A stretch of 22,089 bases of DNA from contig JWZX01002413.1 in NCBI GenBank assembly GCA_001275005.1, forward strand, positions 1 through 22,089. Reading direction: 5' to 3'. The notes under the pieces are model-generated. The model did not search any database. It saw only the letters and a program-made list of their open reading frames with translations, and was not told the origin of the DNA. The DNA comes from Chrysochromulina tobinii (taxonomy: Eukaryota; Haptophyta; Prymnesiales; Chrysochromulinaceae). Shown here piece by piece: positions 1 through 21,950 of this stretch. The number at the start of each line of letters is the position of its first letter. Within the stretch, counting starts at the first letter, position 1. The position numbers and the translations under genes were made by a program.

Positions 1-27
1 GCCTCGGCCGCGCGCGAAGCGCCGCGC

Positions 28-67
<40 letters not shown>

Positions 68-1582
68 TCTCAGCGGCGGCGCGAGGCAGCAGCGGCACCA
101 GCTGTGAATGGTCGTACTGGACGTGGCCTGGTGCCTTGCGCAAGACGGCGCCCTGTGGTGGCGAGACTAGCTCGCCGTCACGGTGCACGAGCATCCGCTG
201 CACGCCGCGCGTCGCATCCTCCTCGCTCTTGTTATAGTTCCACACGCGCAGCGCCGCGACGGGCACTCCCCGCGGTAGGTCGATGCGGAGCGTGTGAGAA
301 CGGCCCGTCTCCGGCTGCCAAGGTGCGAGCCACATGTGGTTAGCATCGGTCGTCGCGTTCACGCCATCCACAAGCTTATCGACGGTCCTCGGATCGTTCG
401 AGCCCGGCTGCAGCTCATTGATCGACGCGGGCGAGGCCGACAGCTGGGTAGGCTTGAGGGCGACCACCTCGCCACGCTCGCCGAGCAGTTCGATGGCGCA
501 GAGACCAAAATAGTTGGGGTCGCCCCATGTCGAAAGTACAGTGCACACGAGCTGCGCGCCCGAGGCAGCCGAGCCCGGCGGCGGCGCCCAGCGTGCGCGC
601 TCCTCGGCCGGGGGCACACCGGCGCCGCCGCCGCCCGCGCCCGCAACGGCGCGCATGGTGTGCACGGAGGGGAGAGGCTCGTGCGCGCCGTAACGGGCGT
701 GCCCGAGGGGGGGCGGCGGCGAGTCGAGGCCGCTTGGGGTCTGTGGGCGCTCGGCGGCGAGACCGAGGGAGCGGCGCATCACTTCGGCCTCGACATGCGG
801 CAGCGCCTCCGGTGGAGCCTTCGAGCTCGCCCCGAGCGCGTCGTCACGGGCGCTCAGCTGCGCTAGGATGCTCGGGTTGTTGGTGAGGAGCACATCGGTC
901 ACGTGACGCGCGCCCGTGTCGGCGCCGACCGCCTGCTGGATCTCACCGCCCCAGATCAGGGTCGAGTCGAGATAGAGCTCAGCATGACGCGCTCCGCGCG
1001 GCGCGTGCGTGCGGCTTGCGTTATAGTTCCACACTCGCACGCGCGCGAGCACGAGCGCACTCGGGAGCGTGATGAAGACCTCATGCCTCTCACCTGCCGT
1101 GAACGGAGCGAGCCACATTGTGGCTGCGTCTGTCGAGCCTGGCTGGCCCACAAAGAGCTTATCAGCCGTGCGCGGGTCGTCTGTGAGGCCCGGCAGCTCG
1201 TGAACCCCTGACGGACGCGCCCGTACCGCCGTCTTGGGCGCCTCGATGACGACGAGCTCGGCCTGCTCATCGAGAACCGTGCGCGCTGTGGTGAGCACTT
1301 GCATGCAAGGCAGGTCATCAGTGGCAATCAACGTACCTGCTCATCGAGCAGCTCGAGGCTCGAAAGCCCAATGTAATTGGGGTCGCCCCACGTGGACAGA
1401 AGTGAGAGACGCAGCGTGCTCCCGCGCGGCAGCCGCGACGGCGGCGCCACGACGGCAGGGCGTAAGCACTCATCGTCCTCAAAGTCGGTGGCGGCGACCA
1501 TCGCGCCGGGGCGACCACCGGCGCCGACGACGCCGCCACCGCCGCCGACGACGCCGCCACCGCCGCCGCCGCCACCGCCACC

Positions 1583-1613
<31 letters not shown>

Positions 1614-3988
1614 ACACCGTGGTCCATGATCACGCCCAGCCCGGAGCCCACGGTGAACGCCTTTGAGGATGACATGAATTCTGTGAGCTCATCTCCATAA
1701 GGGTCCGAGCTCGGTCCGGTTGCAAATCGCGGCGTGAGCAGTGCGTGGGTGCCGGGCGCTGTCTCGGGCGCTGCGGCCGCAGGGACGGCGGGTAGGCTCT
1801 CATCGAGGAAGTCGACGCGAGGGCGGCGCGTGCGCGGCGGCTGCAGCCGCAGGCTGGTCGAGAGGGAAGAGAGGGACGCGTTGAGCTCGTTGACGCTTGG
1901 ACGTCGACGGCCGTGCCCAGGACCACGCGCGTTCATGAGGTTCGTCACCGCGGTCGACTCCGTCTCCATACCCAGCACCTCAACAGTCGGCACCGCCTTC
2001 CCTGGCGCGCGCGATTCGCCTCCGACGCCGCCGCCGGACCGCCCCCCCCCGCAGACGCCGCCCAAGCCGCCGCCGCCCGCGCTACAGTGGCCAAAGCCGC
2101 CGTGGCCAAAGCCGTTGCCGAAGCAACCGCCCGCGCCGCCTTCGAAGCTCGACTCGAGCCCCGCCGAGTCGGGCGGACTGTCCATGAGGACGCCCGCGCC
2201 GAAGCCGCCAAGCGCCCCCCGGTGGCTCGTGACGCCTTCAGAGCTACCCTGGAGCCAGAGCGGCTTGGCGGGCGCCGTGTTGAGCGGGAGCATGACTCCA
2301 CCCGCTCCTCGCGGGCTCGGCGCCCAGCTCGGCGCGGAGAAGGAGGTGCCCGGTGCGGCGGCGCGCGTCGGTCCGCTGCCATCGTAGGCATCGTCGTCGA
2401 AGGCGTCGTCGAAGTCATCGTCGATGTCACTGCCGCGCCGTATTGGGGGCGGCGAGGGCGGCGCGGTCGGCGGCGCCGTCTGCTTCGGCAGTAACGGCTC
2501 CCGTTGGCGACGGCTCGTCGGGGGCAGCTTGGCCGCGGCGGGGCTACCGCGAGCCCGGGGCTTCTCGCCTGGCTGCTCATCCTCGTCCTCGTCGTCCTCG
2601 TCGGCGTTCGGCTGTGCCGCGCTGCGGCTCAACCGAACGCTTCCGCCCCGGCCGCCGCCCCGACCGCCGCCTCGACCTCCGCCTCGACCCCCTGGACCGC
2701 CTGGACCGCCTGAACCGGCCGCGACGTCAACCGCGCTGTCGCCTGCGCCGCCGGTGCCGGCAGTACTACCGTCGGCCCCGTCGCCACTTCGTCCGTGACC
2801 GGCGTCGTCGCAATGACTGCTGCTGCCGTTGCTGCCATGGCCATTGCCGTTACCACCACCGCCGCTGCCGCTGCTGCCGCATGTCTCAGCGGCGCCGCGC
2901 TCCAGTGACGTTGCTCCCACGGCCTCGGTCGGTGCACCTTCGATGGCCTGGAGCATCTGCGTGATCATCTCTATCTTGTGGGGGGCGAGACGCAGCAGTC
3001 TCTCCGCGAGTGCGGCGGCAGCTGCGGCCTCCGAGGCCGAGGCGCCCGAGCACTGCTGCAAGGCAGCCGCGAGCTGCTGGGGTGCCGCGGAGGACGTCGA
3101 CGGGGCTGCCTCTGGCACAGAAGCAGCTTCCAAAGGCAGCGGCGGCGGCGGCGGCGGCGGCGACGGTGACGCCCGCACGGGCAGTGGCGCGTCCGAAGGC
3201 ACCGCCGGCACCGTCGGCAACGGCCCAGATGCCCATGCGAGCGCAGCGGCGGGGGCGACGGCGGGGGCGACGGCGGGGGCGACGGCGGGGGCGACGGCGG
3301 GGGCGACGGCGGGGGCGACGGCGGCAGGCTGCTGTGGAAAGCAAAAGGGCGCAGCGAGATGTCGACGTACCGCCGAGGCCGAGGCCGCCCGCGCGCCCGA
3401 GCGGGAGAGGCACGCACCTGTGGCAATCAGTAGCAATCAGTGGCAATCCGTGGAAGTTCGTGGCAATCAGTAGCAATCAGTGGTAATCAGAGAGGCACGC
3501 ACCCTCGGCCGCGCCCGCGCTCTCTCCCTCTCCCATGCCTCCGGCTGCACCAATGGCGGCACAGCCCAGCGCGACGCGTGGCGAGGCGCCCATCACGACG
3601 CGCGGCGAGGCGCCCGGCACGACGCGTGGCGAGGTGGCACTCGCGGGCAGCGCCACGCCAGGACGCAAAGTGGAAGCAGGCACAGCGCTGCCGGGACGCG
3701 CTGCCGAGCTGGGTCGGCTACACGCGACGGCGGCGCGGTGCGGCGGTGGCACTGCCATCCCCGCTGGCGGCGCGCGCGCCGAGGGCGTCACGACCCCCCG
3801 AGCGAGCCGACCCGAACTAGACGAGCCGCTAATGGCGCCGCTCATCAGGCGCGAGGAGTCTCCTAGGGCGGCGGTCGAGGATGGGCGCGCTAGCGTGGAG
3901 CCGCGCGGCGTGTACATGGACGTAGCCGCCGTCGCGGCCGCCGCCGTGTCGTCCGCCTCGTCAGTCTCGTCAAGTACCTCGTCGACAT

Positions 3989-4041
<53 letters not shown>

Positions 4042-5219
4042 TCCTCAAGCTCCTCGTCGACCTCCTCAACGTCGAGCACCGCCACAGCCGAGGGCGGCAA
4101 ACGCATTGCTGCAGCCCTTGCGGCAGCGCTCGCTGCGGCGCTGGCGGCCGCGGCCGCGGCGCTGGCGGCCGCGGCCGCGGTTCGCTCTCGCTCGGCCAGC
4201 AAGGTCTGCTGAGCACGGCGCGCCGTCTCGAGCTTGGACTCCGCCTCGCGCTCAGCACGGCGCGCCGTCTCGAGCTTGGACTCCGCCTCGCGCTCAGCAC
4301 GGCGCGCCGTCTCGAGCTTGGACTCCGCCTCGCGCTCAGCATGGCGCTCAGCCTCACGCATCGACGCGCGCAGCCGGCGTAGTGTGGCGCGTAGCGAGCC
4401 TCCACCCTCGTCGGGCTCGAAATCGTCCTCGTACTCGCCCGGCTCCGAGGGCATCGATGGCAGCGCCGAGGGCAGCGCAGGCGCGGGCACACACGCCACC
4501 GTGGGCACACACGCCGTCCTGGGCGACTGCGGTACGGCGGCGGCGACGGCGGCGGCGGCCTCGTCCTCGTCCTCGTCCTTGTCCTCGTCCTCGTCCTCGC
4601 CATCGCCGCTTCCTCCGTCGTCGCTGCGATACTGCTCGTACCTCTCCGCCGCCGTGTCAAGAGCGGCCGCCTCTCTCTGCTCCGCGCTCATCATTGACGG
4701 GCCTGCCGCTGCTGCCGCCACTGCTGCCCGCACTGCTGCCGCGACCTGGGCTAGCTCGCTGTCGTCACCGAGGGCCGCGTCCGCGGCTGGGAGTGCAGGC
4801 GAGCGCTTAGGGCGCACCTTGAGCTGCTCACCACCCTGCCCCGCCAGCACCACCGTGTTCTGCTGCCAGCCGCGCCTCGCGCCACCATCGTTGTTGCCAC
4901 CTGGCCGCCATGGCGGCTGCGGCTGCTGCTGCTGCGGTTCTGGCTTCTGAAGCGCCGACTGGCGCTGCTGCTGCTTCTTGTGGAGCAGCTGCAGCGGGTT
5001 CTGCCTCTGTCGGCCCTGCTCGGCCTTCTTGGCGACGCGGTCGGTGTTCGCTCCGGAGAAGCACGTGTCGAAGCCAGCCTCGAGGCTCTTGAGCCGCTGC
5101 TCCCGCCTCTGCTCTTCGACGCTCTGGCGCGTCTTCATGGCGCGGTTGCGCTCTGCGAGGCGGTCGAGGTAATCCAGCGTTCGAGGGTCGGCGCCGCCCG
5201 GGTGGTCGCTCGACGCCAT
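1..5219 (-). CDS. KATNIP: KATNIP (katanin-interacting protein, KIAA0556-like) homologue, C-terminus cut by window edge
   Basis: Three exons are visible on the minus strand: 5219-3503, 3417-1337 and 1262 to beyond 1. They join in frame (phase 1, then phase 0) and give about 1686 residues before the window ends. The start is the ATG at 5217-5219. The N-terminus (about residues 18-60: YLDRLAERNRAMK, then KSLEAGFDTCFSGAN) resembles the KATNIP N-terminal helix. A charged coiled coil (about 270-370) and a poly-Ala run (about 393-410) follow, then long Gly/Ala/Pro-rich linkers. Two DUF4457-type units are clear: STWGDPNYIGLSSLELLDE, later VRVWNYNASRTHAPRGA; and STWGDPNYFGLCAIELLGE, later LRVWNYNKSEEDATRGV. 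In animals this family binds katanin and microtubules at the ciliary base. The poly-residue linkers are unusual. The identification is firm from the repeated TWGDPNY / WNYNxS signatures; exact linker structure is not. Confidence 0.87.
29..63. repeat. CCG trinucleotide tract (poly-Gly in KATNIP)
   Basis: About 11 uninterrupted CCG units lie in the KATNIP coding frame, where they encode a poly-Gly run on the minus strand. The run follows the second DUF4457 unit. Confidence 0.85.
1263..1336 (-). other. intron 2 of the KATNIP gene (74 nt, introner-like)
   Basis: The donor is GAGCAG|GTACGT and the acceptor GAGCAG|GCC. Splicing is phase 0 and joins LELLDEQ to AELVVIEAP, which restores the DUF4457 unit; reading through meets a TGA at once. 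The 13-nt sequence CTCGATGAGCAGG is present at both ends (1336-1348 and 1262-1274 on the plus strand), as a target-site duplication would leave. The interior contains TGATTGCCACTGATGACC. Confidence 0.85.
1520..1613. repeat. GCC/ACC trinucleotide tract (poly-Gly in KATNIP)
   Basis: Imperfect CCG/CCA triplets encode two long glycine runs separated by VV and A residues on the minus strand, in the linker before the first DUF4457 unit. On the plus strand they give a spurious poly-Pro ORF. Confidence 0.8.
3244..3330. repeat. 12-nt minisatellite (Ala-Val-Ala-Pro repeat in KATNIP)
   Basis: About seven near-identical copies of GGGGGCGACGGC lie in tandem. On the minus strand they encode (APAV)n near the start of the second visible exon. 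The near-identity at DNA level points to recent expansion. Confidence 0.85.
3418..3502 (-). other. intron 1 of the KATNIP gene (85 nt, introner-like)
   Basis: The donor is GAGG|GTGCGT and the acceptor GCCACAG|GTGCG, phase 1, joining ...AAEG to ACLSRSG. The 14-nt sequence GGTGCGTGCCTCTC is repeated exactly at both ends (3490-3503 and 3405-3418). The interior is largely repeats of ACTGATTGCT/ACTGATTGCC. Unspliced reading ends at a TGA at 3477. Confidence 0.88.
3990..4041. repeat. GCC triplet tract (poly-Ala in KATNIP)
   Basis: A run of about 16 GCC triplets encodes poly-alanine on the minus strand, flanked by acidic stretches (EEVDEELEE before, DVDEVLDETDEADD after). Confidence 0.8.
4211..4336. 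repeat. three 42-nt tandem copies inside KATNIP coiled coil
   Basis: Three almost identical 42-nt units encode AEREAESKLETARR on the minus strand. Fourteen residues are two heptads, so the repeat lengthens a coiled coil without changing its register. Confidence 0.9.
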
Positions 5220-5364
5220 CACCGGAGCGCTCGCTCGCTCGCGTACACGGCCGGCGTTGGCGCTAGAGGACGAGTTCTACAGAACGCCGTTCGGAGTGTG
5301 AACACCCTGAGCGGTGTTTCGTCAAACAAACGCCCGACCCCCTGGAACGCACCATGCCGCCAAT
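5220..5364. promoter_or_regulatory. 145-bp interval between two minus-strand genes (KATNIP promoter / upstream 3' UTR)
   Basis: This short gap lies downstream of the 5365-6882 gene and upstream of KATNIP, both on the minus strand. It must hold the 3' end of one and the promoter or 5' UTR of the other. It contains a CGCTCGCTCGCTCGC-like run; I see no TATA box. Confidence 0.35.
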
Positions 5365-6882
5365 TCAGTCCCTAACTTGTGCGAACGGCTGCTCCCAATT
5401 ATACACGTCGAAGCTGAGAAGGGGCACGTCGACGGCATTGAGGTTGTACCGTGTCAGGAACTGGTCGCGCGTCGTGCGTGCAAGAGAGTCGCCAAAGAAT
5501 GCTTCAATGGTCAACGGCAAGTGCGCGTTCCAATGGTCGCCCTCTACGACGACTTCGTTGTAATCTGTGTTTCGTCCACGTGCTTGCACCGTCGTCTGCC
5601 AACGATTGGCTCGCTTCAGGTAGACGCCAAAATCCTGTGGGCCCCAGCTGCAACCATCCCGCCCGTCTCTCTGCGGGTCGTAGTGGCTCGGGTCGCCCCC
5701 GGTCGCCGCAATGGACGGGCAGCGCTGCCTGCACGCCCCGCCACCAGAGTCGCCACCGGTGCCACACGCAATGCGCGTCGTGCGGCCAGGGCGTAAGACG
5801 ACGCCGTTGGAGCCCACGCCATTTCCATACACAGGGATAGGTATATTCGGGCTGATCGCCGGGCGCTGCTCGGCATAGATGAGCGAGCAGCTCAACTGCG
5901 GTCTGTGGGCCAAATCGGCGCGCCAGTACTGGTAACCATCGTTGTCATGGTACTCCCACCGGTCGAAAATGTGGACCAGTACAGCGGCATCGGCGAGGCT
6001 GCCGTCGAAGGCCCATTGGATGTCGTGCGGACTGCGCCGGAATCGACGATTGATCGCCGACACGTGCTCCGCGAGCCTGAGCGGCGTTGCGGACGGCGAC
6101 GTTGGCATTGCGGGCGGCAAGGGCGGCAACAATGGCAACGGCGGTGGCGCCGAGGCCGCCGCGACGCAGCAGTGCTTTTCGCGGCAGCCCTTTGTGCCAA
6201 AGCCGCACTCGGGCATGTCTTCCCATTCTGGCCCAAGGCGGCAGCACGCACCACTCAATCCGCAGTGGCCTGTGCAAGCGCCACCCCGGGAATGGCAGGG
6301 CCCCCAGCAATCGGATCCGAGGTTGAGAACCTCATGTGGCGGTGGTGGTGGTGGTGGTGGTGATGGTGGTGGTGGTGGTGATGGTGGTGGTGACCAAGAT
6401 GGCTGAGACGGCTGCGGAGGCATGGGTGGAGGCTTTGGCTCGGGTGGCAACTGCGTCCCAGAGGCGGCGTTCTCAGCCACTGATGGAAGCGCTACAGATT
6501 GATTCAGGGCAGTGTTGGTTTCCAGCCGTGCTGGAGCCCGGCTCAGCTCGAGTGCACCAACCACGATCACGCCAACCAGCATGAGTGCAGACATGAATGC
6601 CAGTGAGGACATGAGTGCGAGGCCCATGATCTCCGTCAATTTAGCACGCGGAAGACGGGGTTGTGCGCTAGGATCCACATCTTCATCCTCGAGACGCTCA
6701 TTGCAAGCCAGCTCCAGCTCATCTAGGTCTGATGCGGACACGCGCTCGCCACGCGCCATTTTGGTGCCTTTTGCCTTCATTTGTGAATGTGCGGTTCGCC
6801 GCCGCTGCTCGAGGCGGACGCGGAGGCGGGAGACGTACCGCGCCGCCGACGCATATTGGGCGTTGGCCACGTTCATTGCCAT
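5365..6882 (-). CDS. single-pass type II membrane protein with Pro-rich stalk and CW...CC cysteine-rich module
   Basis: 505 aa, apparently intronless, with ATG at 6880-6882 (MAMNVANAQYASAARYVSRL). A charged cytosolic N-terminus (1-84) precedes one hydrophobic helix (about 85-112, IMGLALMSSLAFMSALMLVG), with no cleavable signal peptide, so the C-terminus should be lumenal or extracellular. Next come a SPPP-type Pro-rich stalk (about 145-184) and a compact Cys-rich module (about 192-239: CWGPC, CTGHCG, GACCR, CGFG, HCC) with regular C spacing. A C-terminal domain of about 235 residues follows, containing SHYDPQRDGRDGCSWGP and DYNEVVVEGDHWNAHLP. I do not recognise that domain as a named enzyme. 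I associate the CW...CC module with algal surface proteins, from memory. A function in surface glycan or cell-covering biology is speculation. Confidence 0.78.
   Translation of the reverse strand: MAMNVANAQYASAARYVSRLRVRLEQRRRTAHSQMKAKGTKMARGERVSASDLDELELACNERLEDEDVDPSAQPRLPRAKLTEIMGLALMSSLAFMSALMLVGVIVVGALELSRAPARLETNTALNQSVALPSVAENAASGTQLPPEPKPPPMPPQPSQPSWSPPPSPPPPPSPPPPPPPPHEVLNLGSDCWGPCHSRGGACTGHCGLSGACCRLGPEWEDMPECGFGTKGCREKHCCVAAASAPPPLPLLPPLPPAMPTSPSATPLRLAEHVSAINRRFRRSPHDIQWAFDGSLADAAVLVHIFDRWEYHDNDGYQYWRADLAHRPQLSCSLIYAEQRPAISPNIPIPVYGNGVGSNGVVLRPGRTTRIACGTGGDSGGGACRQRCPSIAATGGDPSHYDPQRDGRDGCSWGPQDFGVYLKRANRWQTTVQARGRNTDYNEVVVEGDHWNAHLPLTIEAFFGDSLARTTRDQFLTRYNLNAVDVPLLSFDVYNWEQPFAQVRD
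6337..6394. repeat. GGT/GAT triplet tract (poly-Pro stalk)
   Basis: Tandem GGT triplets with occasional GAT encode SPPPSPPPPPSPPPPPPPPHE on the minus strand, the proline-rich linker between membrane anchor and Cys-rich module. Confidence 0.8.
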
Positions 6883-7487
6883 CTTTCGTAAGTTAGGCGC
6901 ACTTCCCTAAAATGGAGAAAGCGAAGGCTGCACACGAGTCCGTCAGTCGGTTTCGTGGTTACAAATAGCTTGGAAAGGGGTGGGGGAGTACGTGCCCGCG
7001 CTCACGTCGGGTCCCCCCGCGCTCCCCCACACAAAAACTTGCTTCCCACCCGGATCGACACGCAGGTGCGTGTGTATTCTGAGCGCCGGGCAGGAACAGT
7101 GCCGTATCGCGTGCATACATGCGCGCCGCGCGTAGCACCGGTCCGGTCGCGTGTGCCGTGTTAACGTTCACGCGAACATGCGTACCGACCAGCCTCTACG
7201 TCGCACGGTCGACGGTGGACTAACGCACCGGCGGGGATCACAAGGATCCGGACCCCCCATCCCCGACCCGGCCCGACGGCCGACATGTGGATGTGCGCGG
7301 CTGCGCGGGTTCGATTATCGATACATCGATGCCTTCGAACCCGCGCAGTCCGCAGATAAAACACATCAGATATCACCTTTAAACCGACACACATCCCATT
7401 CACGCATGCAGCATTCACGACATGGATATTGTGTGCCCCCCGCCCCAAATTCAATCCTGTGGTACCCTGAGTACTACCGCACCAGTC
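6883..7487. other. 605-bp intergenic region, no gene seen
   Basis: It lies between the start of the Cys-rich membrane protein gene and the stop of the SGNH hydrolase gene, both minus strand, so it holds the hydrolase 3' UTR and the membrane-protein promoter. ORFs here are short and have no family features. The one notable structure is the inverted repeat at 7301-7348. Confidence 0.6.
7301..7348. repeat. perfect 14-bp inverted repeat (hairpin-forming)
   Basis: The arms CTGCGCGGGTTCGA (7301-7314) and TCGAACCCGCGCAG (7335-7348) are exactly complementary across a 20-nt spacer that includes two ATCGAT sites. It lies about 140 bp past the hydrolase stop, so a 3'-end processing or insulator role is possible. 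The GGTTCGA resembles a tRNA B box on both strands, but no cloverleaf can be built. Confidence 0.8.
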
Positions 7488-8966: not shown

Positions 8967-9186
8967 CGCGGGTCCCTCCTTTTTTTCACGTGGCTGCTGC
9001 ATTTCCCCACACAGCGCGGGGGGCATGCCCCGCGTTGGGAGGCGCCCCTTGATGAGGGATGTAATTGCGCCTGCTTTTTCAACCCTGCAGACCACACCCA
9101 GTTGAAGGCCACACCAAGTCAAGACACAAAGTTCACACTGTTAATCACACCAAGTTCCAGCCGACAGCGCAGGTCCGCAGAGTGCA

Positions 9187-11778: not shown

Positions 11779-11849
11779 ACGTCTGCAGAGAGAGCTCGTG
11801 CACGCAGGATGGCCCACTGCAGGGGCGAAACAGCAGCTTTTCAGGACCG

Positions 11850-11871
11850 ACTGTCAAGTCAAGTCAAGGCA
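11850..11871 (-). repeat. 22-nt direct repeat, copy 1: (TTGAC)3-AG acceptor-like
   Basis: Identical to 12205-12226. On the minus strand TGCC is followed by three TTGAC units and ends in AG. The EF-hand frame is open downstream of this AG and closed by TGA just upstream, as expected of a 3' splice site of a 5' intron in that gene. Confidence 0.5.
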
Positions 11872-12204
11872 CCACGTCTGGCTGTTTTGATTCAATTTGA
11901 CTTCATGTAGTTTGCATGCAACATGTAGTCTTCCGCAACGAGCGTAGGCGCTCTTCATTCTGCGCCCTCCACGTCGTGTCTCTTTGGGACCTTGTCGTGC
12001 GTCTTCATGCAGAGATGGGCGCTCTTCACAGAGGCGCGCGATGCGAAGAGGCGCTTTTTTCCCTTCGCGCCGTCGCCGTCCTCGGTGCGAAACCATCGCC
12101 AGCGTCGCCGCCCGCACGCTCGCCCACACCAAGCTGGCTTCTGCAAACAGTCTCGAAACCACCCGGACACGTTTATTTCACAACCAGCGCACAGCACCTT
12201 GCTC

Positions 12205-12226
12205 ACTGTCAAGTCAAGTCAAGGCA
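12205..12226 (-). repeat. 22-nt direct repeat, copy 2: (TTGAC)3-AG acceptor-like
   Basis: Exact second copy, 355 bp from the first and in the same orientation. The flanks differ, so the repeated unit is just these 22 nt. Confidence 0.5.
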
Positions 12227-12285
12227 ACTCCTTGCGAGAGCTTTGCCAACACGACGTGTGTACACGACTCTTGCGCGCAGGATCG

Positions 12286-13611
12286 ATGAGCGACGCGTTA
12301 CGTGCTTGCATCGACAGCATAGTCGTGCCGCATGCGGTATCGCTCGACGCCGCGCTCGAGCGCGTGAAGCACATGCGCTTCAGTGGAGCCGAGCGGCAAC
12401 GCTTTGGGCCGGGTGAGATCAGGCGGTGGCACACGGAGCAATGGTTCCCGACGGGCTTGAGCACGATGGACGCCGTGCTCGAGCACGAGCTCAGCCACTT
12501 CAACGCGTCCGGCGTGAGCAAAGAGATGCTGCGAGCCGCGAGCGTGTGTTGCCCTCACTGCACGCGTGTGCGCATCCGGCGAGGCCAATTGTCAGTCCAG
12601 GGGCCGCAGCAAGGCAAGATGGCGGCGGCGCTAGGTCGCATCAAGCGCCTACATGCCGAGGTGCAGCTGCCGCCCTTTGAAGCGCTGCTGTGCGACCGGG
12701 ACATTTGCAGGACGCCCAGCCATTCCGCCGCTGGCGAGGACGCCGCGTGCGCCCGTAGCGCTCCCATCTTAGTGCATGCCAAGCAGCGTAGCGCGCATCA
12801 CGAGGTGGCGATGCCCGAAAACACCTTCTCGCAAAGCTATGGTGGCAACCCTCCGTGGGTTGAGAGCCGGCGGCAGTTGCTCGAGAGCCGGCGCGCAAAC
12901 CCATGGGCCGTCCGCAGGGACCTGCTCGCTTTCTTTGGCAGGGGCGCGGGCTACCGCAAATTCCTCAACTACTCGGAGGAAGCCGCCACGTTTGAGGAGG
13001 TCACACCCTGGCTTCCGGGCGTGCATGTTCACATGACCCCGCCGTACACGCGCGTGCCGCCGAGCCACGTACCCATGGCCGAGCAGTGCGCCGAGCGCTT
13101 CCTACTGCATCTACCGGGGGCCTGGCCTGGCCACTCCAATAAGCTCAAGCAGCTACTTGCATGCGGCGCCGTCGTGGTCATGCCCCAGAACGACTGGTAC
13201 GAGTTCTGGTATCCACTTCTCCGGCCGTATGTGCACTTCGTGCCCACGCCCAACCTCGCGCTGTACAATGGCCACGACTGGCCGCACGTGCGCCGCTGCC
13301 TGTTGTCGCACGCCGCCGAGGCCGAGCGCATCGGCGCCGAGGCGGGCCGCTTCGTGCAGGATGTGCTCACGCCGCTCGCGATTGATGTATATATGCGCGC
13401 TCTGCTCCGGCGCCTCTCGGATCTGCAGCTCCGCGGCGGCGCGATCGCGCAGGAAGGACGCCGCCTCAGCGGCGGCGTTGGGGGGGCCTCGGCGTCGCTG
13501 GCGGAGTGGGCTCCACAGATACGCTTTAGTAACGCAGCACGAGATCTCACGTCACGCCACGTGGTGAACCAGAACGATTCACATTCAATAAGATATTTTA
13601 GATTTACGTAG
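12286..13611 (+). CDS. GT90-family glycosyltransferase (CAP10/KTEL/POGLUT-like)
   Basis: 441 aa from the ATG at 12286. The frame is open upstream to an ATG at 12007, which would add 93 basic, featureless residues. GT90 hallmarks in order: PILVHAKQRSAHHEVAMPEN (about 160-185); PPWVESRRQLLE then a PW..RR.LLAFFGRGAGYR segment (about 187-225); and FLLHLPGAWPGHSNKLKQLL, ACGAVVVMPQNDWYEFWYPL, LRPYVHFVPT with the usual trailing helices (about 270-380). The family transfers glucose or xylose to proteins, or xylose to capsule glycans, in the secretory pathway; donor and acceptor here are unknown. No signal peptide or ER-retention tail (KDEL-like) is visible, which suggests a missing 5' exon. A TTGCGCGCAG|G acceptor-like site ends five bases before the chosen ATG and would fit this. 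Confidence 0.83.
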   Translation: MSDALRACIDSIVVPHAVSLDAALERVKHMRFSGAERQRFGPGEIRRWHTEQWFPTGLSTMDAVLEHELSHFNASGVSKEMLRAASVCCPHCTRVRIRRGQLSVQGPQQGKMAAALGRIKRLHAEVQLPPFEALLCDRDICRTPSHSAAGEDAACARSAPILVHAKQRSAHHEVAMPENTFSQSYGGNPPWVESRRQLLESRRANPWAVRRDLLAFFGRGAGYRKFLNYSEEAATFEEVTPWLPGVHVHMTPPYTRVPPSHVPMAEQCAERFLLHLPGAWPGHSNKLKQLLACGAVVVMPQNDWYEFWYPLLRPYVHFVPTPNLALYNGHDWPHVRRCLLSHAAEAERIGAEAGRFVQDVLTPLAIDVYMRALLRRLSDLQLRGGAIAQEGRRLSGGVGGASASLAEWAPQIRFSNAARDLTSRHVVNQNDSHSIRYFRFT

Positions 13612-14039
13612 TCGAGTTTGAACTTCAGGATCATGTTGTACCAATTGTGTTGTACATCACTGACTGTGTGTGCAGCAGTAGCGGTTCGCACAGCCGCAGC
13701 GCCAATTGCGCAGCGCCGGCGTGTCGTGTCGTGCGGGCGGGCGGCGTGCCCGTGCGCAGGCACATCGCACAACGCGACCGCCGTCCGGCCCAGGTATACA
13801 CCTTCCTCCGGTCGAGGGACGGAGGCGGGCGGGGTGCGGCGACAGCGTTCGGGGATCGGGGGTTTGCGCTTCAGGAGGTCCCCGAGTGCGGTGCATGGTG
13901 CGCTGCTGCGGTGTGAGAGGCCTGGTGGAACCCATGCAGGTTCCGTGTAGGTTCCGTGTAGGTTCCGTGTAGGTTCCATGCATGTTCCGTGTAGGTTCCG
14001 TGTAGGTTCCATGCAGGTTCCGTGCGCTCATTGTAAAAC
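13612..14039. other. 428-bp convergent intergenic region, no gene seen
   Basis: It holds the 3' ends of the GT90 gene (plus) and the 217-aa gene (minus). It begins AT-rich (TTAGATTTACGTAG, at the GT90 stop), becomes GC-rich, and ends in the 11-bp tandem repeat next to the minus-strand stop codon. Confidence 0.6.
13933..14020. repeat. 11-bp tandem repeat, eight units
   Basis: Two unit types alternate: CGTGTAGGTTC and CATGCAGGTTC (one variant, CATGCATGTTC), in the order B A A A B' A A B with no spacing errors. It ends 20 bp before the stop codon of the minus-strand gene, so it would lie in that gene's 3' UTR. Confidence 0.92.
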
Positions 14040-14693
14040 TCAGCGGGAATACTCGATGTGGACGTCATAGCTGCCGTCAACTACCTCAAGGCTGTCGATG
14101 AAAATCGTCTCGTGCGGATGCACCTTCGCATCGGCGAAAATCTCGTAGAGCGCCACGAGAAGGTCGTGCACCGTGGCGCCCTTGGCGACGATGCGCGAGA
14201 ACTCCTGCTCGGGCTGATCCTGACCGTCAAAGAAGTACGAACAGGGAGTTGCCTCGGTGTACACCTTGAAGCTCTCTGAAAAGAAAGGCCGGGTGATCAT
14301 CGGGACGACGCTAAGGTTCTGCTTGACGAGCGCGAGGAGTGGTTCGTCTATCGCCCATGTCTTGGGGATGGGAATGCTGGACTCCTGGCCCGGCAGCACG
14401 TTCAGCAAGCCCGGTTGGACGTAATTGCTGTTGATGTAACCGAACTGGAAGGGCAGGGACCCGTTCTCAAAGAGCTTGGAACGGTCCAAGAACTTGTCAG
14501 TGATCTGCTCGATCTCTCTGTGACGCGGCGAGAGACGTACTCGCACCTCCGGCTTCGCAACGTTAACTTCCACATCATCTAAGTCACGCCGGCGTTTCTT
14601 CTCCACCTTCAGCCAGTTGAGCTTACTTTGCTCTTGTGCCGTCGAGAGCCTTGTTGTTGAGGTGGCTGTCGGCCATCTCCCGTCCAGCGCCAT
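14040..14693 (-). CDS. uncharacterised 217-aa protein
   Basis: I do not recognise this protein. The ATG at 14691-14693 (MALDGRWPTATSTTRL) is preferred over further in-frame upstream starts because it leaves a short divergent promoter and begins the plausible protein. A basic patch (WLKVEKKRRRDLDD, about residues 27-40) is followed by a well-folded-looking, mixed hydrophobic/charged sequence with no low complexity: RVRLSPRHREIEQITDKFLD, FENGSLPFQFGYINSNYVQP, PGQESSIPIPKTWAIDEPLL and a C-terminal IFIDSLEVVDGSYDVHIEYS. There is no signal peptide or membrane segment. Balanced composition in a region where spurious ORFs are Arg/Ala-rich supports coding. The divergent neighbour is the coiled-coil kinase, so co-expression is possible. 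Confidence 0.68.
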   Translation of the reverse strand: MALDGRWPTATSTTRLSTAQEQSKLNWLKVEKKRRRDLDDVEVNVAKPEVRVRLSPRHREIEQITDKFLDRSKLFENGSLPFQFGYINSNYVQPGLLNVLPGQESSIPIPKTWAIDEPLLALVKQNLSVVPMITRPFFSESFKVYTEATPCSYFFDGQDQPEQEFSRIVAKGATVHDLLVALYEIFADAKVHPHETIFIDSLEVVDGSYDVHIEYSR

Positions 14694-14876
14694 CTTTCGC
14701 AAAAAAAGATTCGTGTCGGCGTGTCTTGTGCGCGCTATCATCAACCGCGAAATCAGCCCGAGTTCTACAGTGCATGCATGCCAAGAATTAGAAGCAAACT
14801 CAGCAATTTTAAGTTCCGGCCGCCCAGTCAACTTCCTTGTCATCACAGGCACATCGCCGCTGTTCACACGCAGAAA
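14694..14876. promoter_or_regulatory. 183-bp bidirectional promoter interval
   Basis: The start codons of the 217-aa gene (minus) and the kinase gene (plus) are only 183 bp apart and point away from each other. The interval is less GC-rich than the flanking coding DNA (AAAAAAAGATTCG, AATTTTAAGTTCC). No TATA box stands out. Confidence 0.5.
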
Positions 14877-17800
14877 ATGGCGTCCCGAGGAGAGGCCGAC
14901 AGCAGCGGCTCGCGCTTCTCGGTCTCCCACAACGGTCTATCCACGTTGCAGGACCTCCTTGAGGTTCGTGCTCACCGGCAGCTATTTGGGCAAAGCCAGA
15001 GCTACTATGGCCAAGCCAAGTCGATTCATGCGGCACCGACGCTCGACAAGTCGGCAACCCTCCGGAAACTTGAGGCGCTGCGAGCGGTTGCTGCACACGC
15101 GCAGGCGAGCGAGCTATCATATGTGATCCGCACCTGGGGGCAAGCTGCCGAGGAGATCGAGACGCCCTCACGGGCGGCAGTGGCCACTGGCGTCACGCTC
15201 TCTCCCACGCCAAGCGGCAACGCACTCGCCCTCATATCTGCGAGCGACGTTGCGGGCCCAGCGAGCGGCCAGCTACGCCGTGCGGCCACAGGGCGGCGCA
15301 CTCTGCGTCTTCTCGAGATGCTGCGTGCGGTCGTGCAGCACGCGTCCGCTGCCGAGCAAGCATGCATCGCTGCAGCCTTTGAGCAATGGTACGAGCTACC
15401 GTTGCCGCCTTCAGCGCGGCTGCCGCGGGCGCCCTCGCCGTCGCTGGCGCCTCCTCCGCCTCCGCCACTGCTACAGCTGCCTCCGAGCCCCAGCCGCGCC
15501 GCACCGTTCGAGTCCGCGCCGTCCGAGACCGAACCGTCGCGCGGTGCGCACAGCAAGCTACCCCGGCTGGCGCTGCCGCCTCGGTTGAGCCTCAACCTGT
15601 TAGCCTACGGTGCGCAGAACTCGGAGCGCGCACCGACTGCACGGATGGGAGACAGCGCGCGAGGCGACGCTACGCCACGCAGCGAGCGCGGCGATGCGAC
15701 GGCGCGGGGCGACGCGACGCCACGGCGGAGTGAGCACGGCGACATGAGGCCTCGCGCCGGCACCCCGGACCGCTCGGCACGGCGCGAGCGCGGTGGCGAA
15801 GCTGACGACGCTGACGACGCTGACGAAGCTGACGAAGCTGACGACGCTGACGACGCTGACGATGGCGAGGAGGAGGAGGGCGAGGACCCGGAGGCGGCCA
15901 AGGCGGAGGAGCTCGACGAAATCGACGAAGCCCACGGGGCAATCGACGAAATCGACGAAGCCCACGGGGCAAGTGCCGAGCAGCCGCGCCGCGCGCGCCG
16001 CCGCTCGCTCACAAGTGACTTTGGCAGCAGCAGCGGCGGCTTCGAGGCGAGCAACGGCAGCTTCCAGCAGAGCCGCGGGGGCTTCGGAGTGAGTGCGCTC
16101 GGCCGTCATCTCGGTAGCAGCGGCGGCGGCGGCGGCAGCAGCCACGCCTGCCACGGTGGCGCCCACGACGGCGCCCACAGTTGTTGCAGCGGCAGCGGTA
16201 GCAACGCTGGCCGCAGCAGCAGCGGCGGCGATGGCGCCGGCGCGTCCCTCGTTGCCAACACGTTCGGCAACTTCAGCGCGGGATACACACGCTCACGCGG
16301 TGGCGCCCAGGACGGCGCGAGCTCCCGGTCCATTGGCGGCGCCCAGGACGGCGCCAAGGACCGCGCCCAGGACGGCGCTGGCGGCGGCGCTGGCGGCGCT
16401 GGCGGCGCTGGCGGCGCTGGCGGCAGCGGCGCGTCCCTCGAGGCTGGCGGCGGCGGAGGGCTCGTGTCCGTCGCTCTCGCCGATCTGAATACGTTAATGG
16501 GCTCTGTCAAGGAGCTCCGTGGCCAGCGGCGCCAGCAAGTGAGCGACCGGCGCTCTGGCGCTCTGCGCGCCGTCCTGCGATCGTCCGACGCCCTGCGCGC
16601 CGAGCGTGGTATACGCCACGCACTTGCAAGCTGGAGCCGCGCCACGCGCTCGCTCAGCGCCGCGACGGCGCTGAGTCGTTCAATGGAGGAGGGCGCGCGG
16701 GCGGCGGAGGCGGCGGAGGCTGCTTATGAGGAGCGGCTGGGGGCGGTGCAGGCACGTGCCGAGGAACAAGCGAAACGGCTCACGTCGGAACGCGAGCAGG
16801 TGAGATTGGATCTCCACTGATGACGCCACTGATGACACCACTGATGACACCACTGATGACCTCCCTCATCACGTCGGAACGCGAGCAGGTGAGATTGGAT
16901 CTCCACTGATGACGCCACTGATTACGCCACTGATGACGCCACTGATGACCTCCCTCATCACGTCGGAACGCGAGCAGGCGCGTGCGCAGGCGGCGGCGGA
17001 GCGCGCGGCAAAGGGGCGCCTGCAGACGGCCCTGGACGAGATGCTCGCCGAAGGAAAGGATCGTCTGAGGAATGAGGTAGCTTCAAGAGCTCCAAGAGCG
17101 CGCCCTGATGGCCCCTAATTGCATCGGAGTGCACCTGAGTGCACCTGGTTGCCTCCCTCATCAGGTGGCGCTCCAGGAGCGGCTCGCCGATGTGATGAAG
17201 GCCGAGGGCGCGCTCCAGGTACGACTCGAAGAGTCCCTCGCGAACGAGTCGCGGCTGCTGCAGCGGCTGCAGCTCGCCCAGGAGGGCGCGCAGGCGCACC
17301 AGCGCTCGCTGGACGCCGCAGCTGCGGCCGAGAGCGAGCTCCGCGCGCAGCTCGAGGCGATGCGTGCGTCTCGTGCTTCGTCAGACAGTGGGGGGGCCGC
17401 CGCCGCACGGCTAGTCAGTACCGTGTACTGCGAAGTGCTCGGGCGTGCTCTGCGTGAGGCGGAGGGTCACGTCGCCGATGCCCGACGCACCACAGAGCGC
17501 GCGCGTCAGGCCGGGCGGGAAGCACTCGCGGAGGCGCACGCCACTGCGCAGGCGGAGGCGCACGCTGCTGCGCAACGGGCGGCCGACGCGACGCGTTCCG
17601 AGGCGGGAGAGCGGGTGGCGGCGACGGCGGCCCAGATTCAAAACGCGAGGGCGCGCCGGCTGAGCACGTGGATTCGTCAAGTGGATGGGCAGCGGCTCTC
17701 GTGGGGATGGGCCGAATGGCGTGCGGCGGTTGCGCTGGTGAGTCGCTGGGAGCTCACCATCTCCCCGGGAGCTCGCCATCTCGCTGGGAGCTCCCCATCT

Positions 17801-20749
17801 CCCTGGGAGCTCCCCATCTCCCTGGGAGCTCGCCATCTCGCTGGGAGCTCCCCATCTCCCTGGGAGCTCCCCATCTCCCTGGGAGCTCCCCATCTCCCTG
17901 GGAGCTCCCCATCTCCCTGGGAGCTCCCCATCTCCCTGGGAGCTCACCATCTCGCTTCCTGATGGCCTCCCCACGGCCACCCCGATGACCTCTGATGAGC
18001 TCGGATTGCCTCTAATGAGCTCGGATTGCCTCTGATGAGCTCGGATTGCCTCTGATGATCTCGGATTGCCTCTGATGAGCTCGGATTGCCTCTGATGATC
18101 TCGGATTGCCTCTGATGATCTCGGATTGCCTCTGATTGCGCCTCGGATTGCCTCCCTCATCAGGTCAGCTCCGACGAGCTCCGACGCGCCGAGCTCGAGA
18201 AGAGCAAGCGGAACGCGATGCAGCTGCGCAAGAGCCTCAAGGAGTCCGACAGCTCGGCGCACGAGCAGCTCGAGCGGCAAGAGGAGCGCATGAAATCTCT
18301 CGAGCTCCAGATCGAGCGGCTCAAAAAGGAGGCGGCCGCCGTGTCGGCCAAGCATGCGGCCGACAAGAAGGCGGCCGAGCAGCGCGAGCGCTCCGCCGCA
18401 CGCGACGCGGCGAGCGCCGTCGCGAGCGCCAAGGCGTCCGCGACGGCGCTCGAGCAGCAGCGTGAGCGGCTTCGGCTCAGTGTGCTCGAGAGGCTACTCG
18501 GCTACCGGCCCAAGTGGGAGCGTGTGAAGAAGCTCGAGGCCGCCTGCATCCGCTGGCGCAAGGCGGTGCTACTCGTTCAGAAGCATGCGCGCGAGGCTAC
18601 CAGGAGTGACGCTGCCACGGTGACTGCGCCTTCGGGGATGGGAGCACCCTCGTCCGCCCCACCAGGGTCGTTACGGCCCGAGCGCCCCGTGCCCGCGCCG
18701 CCAACCTCCGCCCCCTCGCACACGCCGATGCCGCCGAGGAGGCCAGTTGAGGCGGTGAGCGCTGTGGCGAGCGCCGCGTTGAGCGCCGCGCCCTCCGAGC
18801 CAAAGCCCGCCGAGGCGGCATCGATGGTCGTGGGCGTCACGCGCCCGCCACAGCGCCCGGTCCGTCCAGTGGCTCAACCTCTTTCGCCCCCCGAGCTGCC
18901 GCCCGAGCTGCCGCCTGCGACAGGGCGCCCAAGGGCGCCATCCTGGGCGCCTTCCGCCGAGCAGCCTGACAGCCACATGGCGGCGCGCTGGCTGCAGGGG
19001 GCGGCGGAGGCCACATCTCGCTGGATGCGGCAGGGCGACAAGGCTGAGGGCGGCGGCGGTGCGGGCGGCGCGGCGACCGAACGACGCGGAGCCGGCGGAA
19101 CCGTCGGAGCCGGCAGCGGCGGCGGCGCGGCACCGAATGAACGACGCGCCCACGACGGCGCGAAGCCCGTGCTGCTCTCGAGTCAATCGTTCTCGCGATC
19201 GGCGGACGGGACGACGGGGAGTGCCAAGGGGCTGAGCGGCGGGCGTTCGCCTGGGAGCGTACGCGAGGCCGAGGCGCCGAGGGCGAAACCGTTGGAAGAG
19301 GTCGCTCGATACGGCGCGTTAGAAGAGGTCGCTCGATATGGCTCGCCGCAGGTGAGTCGCCTGCGCCAGCAGCAGCAGCAGCCTAAAGCCGCGCCAGCCG
19401 CCGCAGACGAGGCCGCGGCGGGCGCGGGCGCGGCTGGTGCAGCGCCCTACCCCGTCGTTGCGAGGCAGCGCGACGATGCCAAGGACAACACCCCTCGAGC
19501 CAAAGGCAAGGGTAAGGAGGGCAACGGGCTCGTCGCGCAGCCTCCTAGCAGTGTGGAGCTGGCGGCGTACCGCAAGATGATCCAATCGTCTGTAGGGAAG
19601 GACGGCGCGCCGCGCCTCGACTCGGTCTCGCTCTATTCGCTCGGAAAGCTTCTGGGCAAGGGCGCCTTCGGTGCAGTCAAGATGGGCGTGCATAAGCTGA
19701 CCGGCGCGGTGGTGGCCATCAAGAACTTCAAAAAGGCCGACGTGAAGAACGAGGTGGAGGCGCGCGCCATCGACCGCGAGATTCGGATCCTGAAGCAGAG
19801 CGTGCACCAGCACATCATCAAGCTGTACGAAGTGATCGACTCGCCCACCAATTGGTACCTTGTGATGGAGTGCGCGGCCAACGGCGACCTCGCTGGGCAC
19901 TTGGAGAAGAAGGGGCGGTTGAGAGAGGCCGAGGCGGCCAAATACCTCGTGCAGACTGTGGAGGCGATCGGGTGCTGCCATGCGAATGGCTTCATCCACC
20001 GCGACATCAAGCCTGAGAACTTGCTGCTCGACGTGCACTACGACATCAAGGTGACCGACTTTGGTGGTCGACTTTGGGCTCTGTTTGCCTCTGATTGCCT
20101 CTGATTGCCTCTGATTGGGCTTGAGTGCCTCCCTCATCAGGTGACCGACTTTGGGCTCTCGGCCATCGCTAAGCCGGGTCAGCTGCTCAAGGTGGCTTGT
20201 GGCACACCATCGTACTCTGCCCCGGAGGTCATCTGCCGAAAGGAGTACGATGGCACTCTGACCGACGTGTGGTCTCTCGGCGTCCTCTTGTACCACCTGA
20301 CGCACGGCGTGCTCCCGTTCAACGATACCGCGCACATCCGTGCGGGCGACTACCATCCCAACCCCGAGGTGATCGCTCCCTCGACCCTCGAGCTACGACG
20401 GGGCGTCATTGCCACTGATGGCCTGCCTGATTGCCTCCCTCATCAGGTGATCGCTCCCGCGGCCCTCGAGCTGCTACGCACCATGCTCGTCGTCAACGCC
20501 AACCAGCGCATCACGCTCGACGCAGTGAGCCGTCACCCTTGGATGGTGCAATGGCGCCCGCACGCACTCCGCCCGCCGCGACGCCGCTTCGGGCTCACCT
20601 ACCACGAGCCCGATCCCGAGCTCGTCAAGCACATTGAGGACAAGTTTGGCCTGATGGCCGATCATGTCGAGGCTTCGCTCAAGGGCGGCCTGTACAACCA
20701 CGCGACTGCCTCGTACTCGCTTCTCGAGGAGGAGCGAGGCGGTGGGTGA
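14877..20749 (+). CDS. coiled-coil/Trp-repeat protein with C-terminal CAMK/SNF1-like Ser/Thr kinase
   Basis: Exons 14877-16799, 16978-17076, 17165-17737, 18164-20050, 20141-20368 and 20447-20749 all join in phase 0, giving 1670 aa. The ATG has good context (AGAAAATGG). N-terminal helical segments with a conserved Trp (about 60-92, LRKLEALRAVAAHAQASELS then IRTWGQA; a second copy ends AAFEQWYEL) look Sfi1/centrin-binding-like; further examples lie in exons 1, 3 and 4. Acidic DADD repeats, Gly/Ser linkers and a coiled coil (about 650-950) follow. Kinase: GKGAFG (1363-1368), VAIK Lys 1385, alpha-C Glu 1404, HRDIKPEN (Asp 1479), DFG (1497-1499), CGTPSYSAPE (1514-1523), DVWSLG, LLRTMLV, and HPW. 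All catalytic residues are present. Between LPFND and GDY the domain is about six residues shorter than usual for the family. The class is CAMK/SNF1-like; substrates are unknown. Confidence 0.86.
15799..15862. repeat. GCTGACGAC/GCTGACGAA tandem tract (acidic repeat in kinase)
   Basis: About seven 9-nt units encode DADDADDADEADEADDADD. They are followed by EEEEGEDPE, making a strongly acidic block in exon 1. Confidence 0.85.
15915..15972. repeat. 30-nt tandem duplication (DEIDEAHGAI)
   Basis: Two practically identical 30-nt copies encode DEIDEAHGAI and DEIDEAHGAS. Together with the preceding acidic tract this is a recent in-frame expansion. Confidence 0.88.
16800..16977 (+). other. intron 1 of kinase gene: two introner-like bodies in 89-bp tandem
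   Basis: The donor is GAGCAG|GTGAGA and the outer acceptor GAGCAG|GCG, joining SEREQ to ARAQ in phase 0. The target CGTCGGAACGCGAGCAGG occurs three times, its last base at 16800, 16889 and 16978: upstream exon, middle, downstream end. Each full copy is 21 nt and spaced exactly 89 bp apart. The two bodies differ at three positions, each with ACTGATGAC(G/A)CC arrays and a CCTCCCTCATC end. The middle copy makes a direct AG|GT junction at 16888/16889. Confidence 0.88.
17077..17164 (+). other. intron 2 of kinase gene (88 nt, introner-like)
   Basis: The donor is AATGAG|GTAGCT and the acceptor CCTCCCTCATCAG|GTGGCG, phase 0, joining RNE to VALQE. A diverged target duplication is visible: AGGTAGC..TTCAAGAGC at the 5' end against AGGTGGCGCTCCAGGAGC at the 3' end. 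A TAA at 17116-17118 closes the unspliced frame. Confidence 0.85.
17748..17956. repeat. 19-bp tandem repeat, 11 units, in kinase intron 3
   Basis: Units are GGGAGCTCCCCATCTCCCT with variants GGGAGCTCGCCATCTCGCT and GGGAGCTCACC.... The core GGGAGCTCCC is palindromic. Units begin every 19 bp from 17748 to 17938. Read as protein it gives a spurious low-complexity ORF. Confidence 0.93.
17994..18133. repeat. 20-bp tandem repeat, 7 units, in kinase intron 3
   Basis: Units are GATGAGCTCGGATTGCCTCT (or GATGATCTC..., once AATGAGCTC...). The unit contains the CTGAT and GATTGCCTC motifs that form the body of the shorter introns, so this is an expansion of intron-type sequence. Confidence 0.93.
20051..20140 (+). 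other. intron 4 of kinase gene (90 nt, introner-like, just before DFG)
   Basis: The donor is ATCAAG|GTGACC and the acceptor CCTCCCTCATCAG|GTGACC, phase 0, joining HYDIK to VTDFGLSA. AGGTGACCGACTTTGG (16 nt) is exact at both ends (20049-20064 and 20139-20154). A second partial copy (GTCGACTTTGGGCTCT, 20067-20082) lies inside. The body is CTCTGATTGC repeats. Retention gives VTDFGG, then a stop at 20102. Confidence 0.9.
20369..20446 (+). other. intron 5 of kinase gene (78 nt, introner-like, stop-free)
   Basis: The donor is CCCGAG|GTGATC and the acceptor CCTCCCTCATCAG|GTGATC, phase 0, joining HPNPE to VIAPAALEL. AGGTGATCGCTCCC is exact at both ends, and the duplication continues to 28 nt with two mismatches. 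The intron is 26 codons long with no in-frame stop, so a retained form would be translatable. Family alignment (APAALELLRTMLV following GDY) favours splicing. Confidence 0.8.
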
Positions 20750-21676: not shown

Positions 21677-21950
21677 TACGTAGTACGGTACTTACTTACT
21701 ATCTGCATGCTCTAGAGAGCCAGATCATGTAGCCATGCATACACAGGGCTCGGTTGGCCTCGGCGGCCACACCGGCCATCATAATGACGAGCTAACAACT
21801 ATGCTGCGACAAACAGTCCATAGGTTTGCAAATAGGTAGTCGAGGCTTGCGGCATCGACCCCCCCCCCTTGTAGCACGAGCGCTCGAGCTATTGCCCCGC
21901 GGCATCGAGTGCGAGTGGCGCAGTGAGGCGGCCCTGACGAGGATCGGCTG

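Follow-up and report, generated by a model that had tools for sequence, protein, structure and literature searches.

The window analyzed here, i.e., the whole 22,089-nucleotide stretch of Chrysochromulina tobinii contig JWZX01002413.1, contains two genes with introns, one on each strand (Table 1), and its remaining genes, predicted to be intronless, are long open frames. The plus-strand gene has five introns (c1, c2, c3, k1 and k2) and encodes a coiled-coil protein with a C-terminal protein kinase domain, the "coiled-coil" label being a reader's view of the sequence rather than the output of a tool. The nearest named protein to the kinase was from Prymnesium polylepis (62% over 39% of the query), as was that to the product of a GT90-type gene in the window (45% over 85% of the query). 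An 11-nt tandem array of CCGTGTAGGTT lies between this GT90-type gene and a minus-strand gene at 14040 (window 13921-14030); it is without CTGAT units and represents a different kind of repeat from the intron filler described below.

Table 1. Intron-containing genes, their introns and the duplicated exon stretches, in window coordinates.
Feature	Position	Strand	Description
Gene with introns m1 and m2	1..5219	-	Extends past window edge
Intron m2	1263..1336	-	Both splice sites within or beside 13-nt duplication CTCGATGAGCAGG
Intron m1	3418..3502	-	CTGAT-type body; 3' end GATTGCCACAG; 14-nt duplication GGTGCGTGCCTCTC
Coiled-coil and C-terminal protein kinase gene	14877..20749	+	Six exons in total; spliced length 1670 aa
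Kinase gene exons 1-3	14877-16799, 16978-17076, 17165-17737	+	
Kinase gene exons 4-6	18164-20050, 20141-20368, 20447-20749	+	
Intron c1	16800..16977	+	AG|GT...AG|GC; 21-nt exact duplication; internal 89-nt tandem unit
c1 duplication, copy 1	16780..16800	+	
c1 duplication, third copy	16869..16889	+	Within the tandem unit of c1
c1 duplication, copy 2	16958..16978	+	After CCTCCCTCATC, overlapping by TC
Intron c2	17077..17164	+	5' end a decayed duplication; 3' end conserved
Intron c3	17738..18163	+	Long; 19-nt and 20-nt tandem arrays; no duplication detected
Intron k1	20051..20140	+	Directly 5' of kinase DFG motif; 16-nt duplication
k1 duplication, copies 1 and 2	20049..20064; 20139..20154	+	
Intron k2	20369..20446	+	Duplication 14 nt exact, 34 nt with mismatches
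k2 duplication, copies 1 and 2	20367..20380; 20445..20458	+	Exact part
Complete 20-nt 3' end cassette CTGATTGCCTCCCTCATCAG	20427..20446	+	Branch-point-like CTGAT, pyrimidine tract, AG

Splicing and junction repeats of the window introns

Removal of its five introns left the kinase gene with 1670 codons and a single terminal stop, as compared with 46 in-frame stops in the unspliced gene. Similarly, the minus-strand gene without m1 and m2 was open over 1686 codons to the window edge, and had 18 stops when unspliced. The spliced kinase gave a single Pfam Pkinase hit covering model positions 1-263 of 263 (231 bits), as opposed to two pieces of 132 and 79 bits for the unspliced gene. In the same genome, the Lon gene on contig C289 has four intron positions within 157 codons, and its spliced product could be aligned without gaps over 157/157 residues to a Lon protein whose structure is known (8k3y, E = 2e-62). 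Judged by sequence, the window segments behave as spliceosomal introns, their removal restoring open frames in both genes.

For all seven introns, a direct repeat was sought at an offset equal to the intron's own length. Exact junction repeats were present at c1, k1, k2, m1 and m2, with the lengths given in Table 1, and k1 was found to open with the exon start followed by a piece of the exon start again. For these five introns, none of the 21,690-21,794 other window positions matched the observed repeat length at the same spacing when each site itself and 60 nt around it were left out, nor did any of 54-73 GT..AG pairs reach that length. At c2 the exact repeat was only 4 nt (2.3% of positions equal or better), but when its first 50 nt were aligned to the exon start with gaps, the match had p = 0.002, as one of ten such tests. 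At c3 the exact repeat was 3 nt (7.7% of positions equal or better) and a gapped match was absent (p = 0.24 and 0.34). The repeat sequences and coordinates of the original prediction were correct; its statement that every placed intron is flanked by a direct repeat holds for the five clear introns and, in decayed form, for c2, but not for c3.

Intron ends, filler and duplications across the genome

The filler of these introns is made up of CTGAT-type units of 10-11 nt. In the window, 25 such units lie in the 1,019 nt of the seven introns, as against 18 in the other 43,159 nt of the two strands, of which six are the reverse strand of intron ends. Variants of the 20-nt cassette CTGATTGCCTCCCTCATCAG terminate introns c2, c3 and k1. 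CTGAT fits the CTRAY branch-point pattern, and a link between these units and snoRNA boxes would be conceivable.

The 17-mer TGCCTCCCTCATCAGGT, taken from the intron end, occurred in 782 exact copies in 53.15 Mb (379 + 403; each a candidate intron end) and its reversed control in none, in agreement with the genome-wide family that had been predicted. A sample of 272,676 bases in 33 pieces, most of which were selected for carrying the conserved end, held 118 copies of CCTCCCTCATC, with AGGT following in 80, as compared with 0, 0, 1 and 2 copies of four scrambled controls; five 8-kb stretches not selected for this sequence held 3, 1, 0, 0 and 0. Conservation across the 118 ends started sharply at CTGAT, approximately 20 nt from the 3' end, and stopped at AG|GT, with just a weak echo of about ten bases upstream of CTGAT. 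Similarity spanning both intron ends was not found, being confined to these ~20 nt. A viral collection yielded no exact match to the 22-mer that was tried, and a match in a Lachnospiraceae MAG was rejected as chance-level, lying within apparent bacterial coding sequence.

Flanks were compared by matching the 60 nt that follow each conserved end to the preceding 300 nt. Swapped flanks served as the control, since random AGGT sites suffered from repeat contamination (16% of 380 scored ≥25). The median score was 19.2 for the 118 ends and 9.4 for 337 swapped flanks, with 34% and 0.3%, respectively, scoring ≥25. Among 82 matches scoring ≥13, 53 had an exon copy starting with the A, G or GT that immediately follows CATC, a precision of the 3' junction that in this end-selected set is partly imposed by the search for that end. 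At three places (L023 rc 7241-7381, L032 7367-7603 and L031 rc 1183-1433), an exon copy and an intron end together form a unit that is repeated in tandem, which may reflect slippage or repeated insertion at the same CATCAG|GT. Five conserved intron ends lie head to tail at 21-nt spacing (CTGATTGCCTCCCTCATCAGG) at L026 6598-6682.

Given that the 118 ends had been chosen by their end and include tandem arrays, a second scan was performed independently of that end, for any duplication of at least 13 nt (hence a floor of 13) around CTGAT-type filler. Removal of filler-like, simple and low-complexity repeats reduced 120 candidates to 101, of which 92 pairs had an upstream flank that was not filler-like, and merging of pairs sharing an upstream copy left 78. 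GT-AG was the commonest of 64 dinucleotide pairs, fitting 38 of the 92 pairs (opposite strand, 9); TC-CC came next with 33, a count that is due to pyrimidine-rich sequence. GC-AG fitted 15 of the 92, not above other GC pairs; at L022 8001-8140 (+), the first copy of the duplication has donor GC rather than GT, a possible GC-AG intron. In the de-duplicated set, AGGT was the commonest of all 256 four-letter words at the junction (33/78), as compared with 4-13 for any of the 11 alternative arrangements of these letters and 9 for the opposite strand. The next words were GGTG (30) and CAGG (29), both of which overlap AGGT, and CCTC (23).

In the 38 GT-AG pairs, counted before de-duplication, the splice point lay at the start of the duplication in 14, in the middle in 17 and at the end in 7, and duplication length was not fixed, ranging from 13 to 69 nt. 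The two copies were identical in 17 of the 33 de-duplicated spliceable pairs, and the coding frame was continuous across the splice in 25 (chance 11) and failed in eight. On both sides, the ends of the filler varied from case to case. The 45/78 pairs without GT-AG include some unrelated repeats of other kinds, and may partly reflect a loose scan filter; their number is inflated by a repeat of ~80-nt units (ACCCAAGGGGGTAGGGGAGGG...) at L031 4781-5180 (+), which is unrelated to introns. An earlier and looser exact-match scan, with 1,584 repeats and GT-AG ranked 12th among the listed dinucleotide pairs, was swamped by low-complexity repeats; it showed no excess of GT-AG and thus lends no support.

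The filler carries no sign of inverted repeats. The reverse complement of the conserved end was found within 400 nt upstream at 0 of the 118 ends, and an 8-9 nt piece of it at two; the inverted-repeat score of filler ends in 30 pairs was 4.23, as compared with 4.20 after shuffling. Likeness among fillers was local. A close partner existed for 63 ends, and for 40 of these the best one shared both contig and strand (expected 2.5; this count includes tandem arrays). Of 128 same-strand intron pairs lying 300-12,000 nt apart, 17 had 15 nt or more in common upstream of the conserved end, as compared with 193/6,658 pairs from different contigs (p = 3e-7, the pairs being non-independent) and 0/39 pairs in opposite orientation within a contig; at 18 nt the figures were 6/128 and 92/6,658 (p = 0.01). 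In the Lon gene, the filler of two introns contains CGATTAC, which is exon sequence at the site of a third, as though it had come along from that site, the third intron being a possible donor.

Empty and occupied sites in relatives

The c1 site is read through in proteins from two metagenome contigs, P0042 (8.9 kb; 94% identity over 141 aligned residues) and P0043 (15.7 kb; 86% over 145). Past this site, P0043 enters c2 via the exon-start copy and then filler, and P0042 stops one residue after VA, at c2. Since both proteins enter intron c2, their source is read as unspliced DNA, for which the evidence is clearer in P0043 than in P0042. The c2 region of P0043, RNE-VALQER-APMATDCL, corresponds to a duplicate of the downstream exon with CTGAT-type filler behind it; the window copy is decayed.

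For k1 and k2, 23 aligned proteins (P0008-P0030) were classed by eye, and both sites were uninterrupted in 17. These include P0010 (89%; on a 1.1-kb contig that could be a transcript), P0011 (83%; 32.9-kb contig), P0012 (80%; 7.7-kb contig), P0017 (79%; 12.7-kb contig) and P0009 (71%; 9.7-kb contig), the last with an insertion elsewhere that resembles an unspliced intron. Among the others, P0013, P0020 and P0021 terminate in or before k1, and P0027 and P0028 diverge after it. Two of the proteins from other assemblies are near-identical to that of the window. P0013 (33 member sequences) ends inside k1. P0041 (59 member sequences) begins in c2 and enters c3, the repeat content of which differs from that in the window. 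Intron c3 is present in P0021 also, which begins in its 3' end and has 92% identity over the part adjacent to c3 and 95% over the kinase part.

The predicted recent gain, with a target duplication supplying the splice sites, is supported; the sites of c1 (P0042, P0043) and of k1 and k2 (17/23) are empty in relatives. The further proposal that nearly all introns of the window are recent gains was too strong, since c2 (17077) and c3 (17738) appear to be shared with relatives. The kinase gene displays stages side by side, i.e., c1 with a perfect 21-nt duplication and missing from close relatives, c2 shared and decayed here with its exon copy legible in one relative, and c3 shared and without a duplication. 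The origin of introns is an old question for which few early cases have been caught, and near relatives without the apparently new introns would let the steps of intron birth be read.

P0020 and P0021, from a close relative, end in DDH after HLEKKG, at about window position 19913, where the window is uninterrupted. Inferring from the protein alone, this end could represent GGT GAT GAC CAC TGA, i.e., the usual filler, and hence a new CTGAT-type intron that is absent from the window.

Origin of the introns

On the basis of the features visible in the sequence, namely the duplication, the AG|GT excess, the continuous frame, the empty sites of relatives, the CTGAT-type filler, the 3' end and the locality, we assign a probability of roughly 0.5 to the reading that these introns arose when intron-derived filler was inserted into an exon, between duplicate copies of a stretch of 13-69 nt. 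The events that we infer behind it are a staggered cut, fill-in, filler capture, selection and later decay. An exon would be cut on its two strands some 15-50 nt apart, by paired nicks or a staggered break, and both overhangs would be filled in, duplicating the stretch. The two copies would be joined through filler that had been copied or captured from an intron nearby, in many cases one within the same gene. Survivors would be those that leave the mRNA unchanged, either because the duplication contains AG|GT or because the filler provides the missing AG or GT. Afterwards, the filler would grow by slippage and the intronic copy would decay.

The variable duplication, the free position of AG|GT, the free filler ends, the local kinship and the doubled exon-start piece of k1, which is as template switching would give, all fit repair of a staggered break, and the "local segmental duplication plus insertion" put forward in the original prediction comes closest to the data. 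According to the available text of PMC5730883, repair of adjacent nicks yields tandem duplications in mouse cells. A counter-point is that the 3' end is near-invariant (782 exact 17-mers) and the rest of the filler is not; since random filler needs no invariant 3' end, we put this down to splicing selection and copying. The analysis pointed to no nuclease, polymerase or repair intermediate. Daphnia introns ascribed to double-strand-break repair are alike in that their direct repeats are read as filled-in staggered breaks (PMC4202315, in the text available), and the corresponding trait, direct repeats that flank the intron and vary in length, was found here. The Daphnia repeats shared with the adjacent exon are, in that text, 4-12 bp, whereas those described here are longer and enclose one intron-type pool of filler. 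A 2025 survey of 213 introns gives, in its available part, direct repeats of 4-30 bp located at the borders or close to them (PMC11782384), so that long repeats as such have precedent. Judged by titles and abstract openings in mostly non-subscription literature, no haptophyte introns of such structure were found.

More tentatively, introns might seed new introns in the same transcript during staggered-break repair of a neighbouring exon. The template of the filler would then be intron RNA, or intron DNA copied in place, and the duplicated exon would give the splice sites. If true, introns could multiply gene by gene with neither a transposase nor a fixed mobile unit, the portable part being the 20-nt cassette of branch point, pyrimidine tract and AG. 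Should the structure described here hold across the genome, a transposon would not be required for introns to be gained.

The strongest alternative, which we regard as possible though doubtful, is target-primed reverse transcription, in which a LINE-type reverse transcriptase would nick the exon and copy intron RNA or pre-mRNA at the nick, giving long, variable duplications that are often truncated on the 5' side. Variable duplications of such length are typical of LINE insertion, and long variable duplications with truncated copies mark both target-primed LINE insertion and tailless retrocopies; the introns described here are alike in these respects and differ in that the family-free set is without a fixed 3' end. 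The genome has at least 26 RVT_1 matches, for nine of which an Exo_endo_phos match lies upstream on the same contig and strand; these LINE-like arrangements (contigs C914, C1728, C1323, C1586, C962, C1004, C767, C1778 and C367) are mostly in long open frames. The Lon CGATTAC looks as if carried along by 5'-truncated copies of a single donor, the likeness of introns on the same strand and contig suits a local transcript, and the junction right after CATC in 53/82 matches of the end-selected set would also be in keeping with RNA priming, although this figure is partly an effect of searching by that end. A 3' end common to all copies, as in LINE insertion by target priming, was largely found in the end-selected set but not in the family-free scan, in which many insertions have filler stopping inside CTGAT units and, in some, the filler itself provides the 5' GT.

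Two related candidates were set aside. A 3'-anchored retro-element with a fixed end, which had at one time been the leading explanation, was demoted because the family-free scan showed free filler ends, and was weakened as well by splice sites in the middle or at the end of the duplications in that scan. A Penelope-like element was rejected, none of at least four GIY-YIG matches being on the contig of any of the at least 26 reverse transcriptase matches, among the matches listed.

The DNA-transposon-like introner model of the original prediction was not supported, and a non-autonomous element of this kind, with an unusual transposase making long target duplications, is improbable. Introners of Micromonas, Aureococcus and dinoflagellates, as presented in the available text of PMC9860276, are alike in that a repeated sequence makes introns that leave the mRNA unchanged, and in that their splice sites are supplied or recruited by more than one route, of which target duplication can be one; hundreds of copies sharing one conserved end would suit such an element. 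The target duplications of the previously characterised families in that text are 3-9 bp, often with inverted repeats, whereas here they are 13-69 nt with no fixed length, inverted repeats and a conserved 5' end are absent, 3' ends are heterogeneous in the family-free set and only the 20-nt 3' end is common. The free filler ends, the absence of inverted repeats and the variable duplications thus make a transposon unlikely, and support the doubt, already voiced about duplications of 13-28 nt, that they are too long for a simple transposase. The introner elements of Amoebophrya likewise have direct repeats overlapping exon-intron borders; in the available text of PMC7789003 these measure 3-5 nt and are accompanied by 8-20 nt inverted repeats and by splice sites that are non-canonical, unlike the mostly canonical GT-AG introns without inverted repeats described here.

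Just as improbable is a simple tandem duplication of an exon segment that contains AGGT, including duplication across the 3' end of an intron already present, without any insertion as a separate event. In this model, due to Rogers and set out in PMC4974935, a duplicated exon with AG|GT gives both donor and acceptor, as here, and the available text reports a potato intron from tandem duplication. The AGGT enrichment (33/78 versus 4-13) and the several-fold tandem units of exon copy and intron end at C107 and C334 are what it would give. The clear cases, however, have non-exon filler between the copies, intron-derived and carrying the branch-point-like motif, and the c1, k1 and k2 sites are uninterrupted in relatives, so that there was no intron there to duplicate. 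The model was shown to be insufficient for c1, and could still explain the tandem arrays. Duplication length, the free position of AG|GT and filler like that of nearby introns set the present introns apart from simple tandem duplication and from introners, insofar as these are described in the texts cited.

Old introns with converged ends, or assembly artefacts, are very improbable, given that closer relatives are without k1, k2 and c1 and that the near-identical P0013 and P0041, from other assemblies, enter the same introns, even though a site such as k1 is, or formerly was, in use elsewhere. The latter case is that of P0029, a predicted protein of Prymnesium polylepis with 33 extra residues exactly at k1, between DIK and VTDFGL. 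This insertion does not have the appearance of CTGAT-type filler and resembles a retained intron of other sequence; both independent use of the same AAG|GT site and an older intron are possible.
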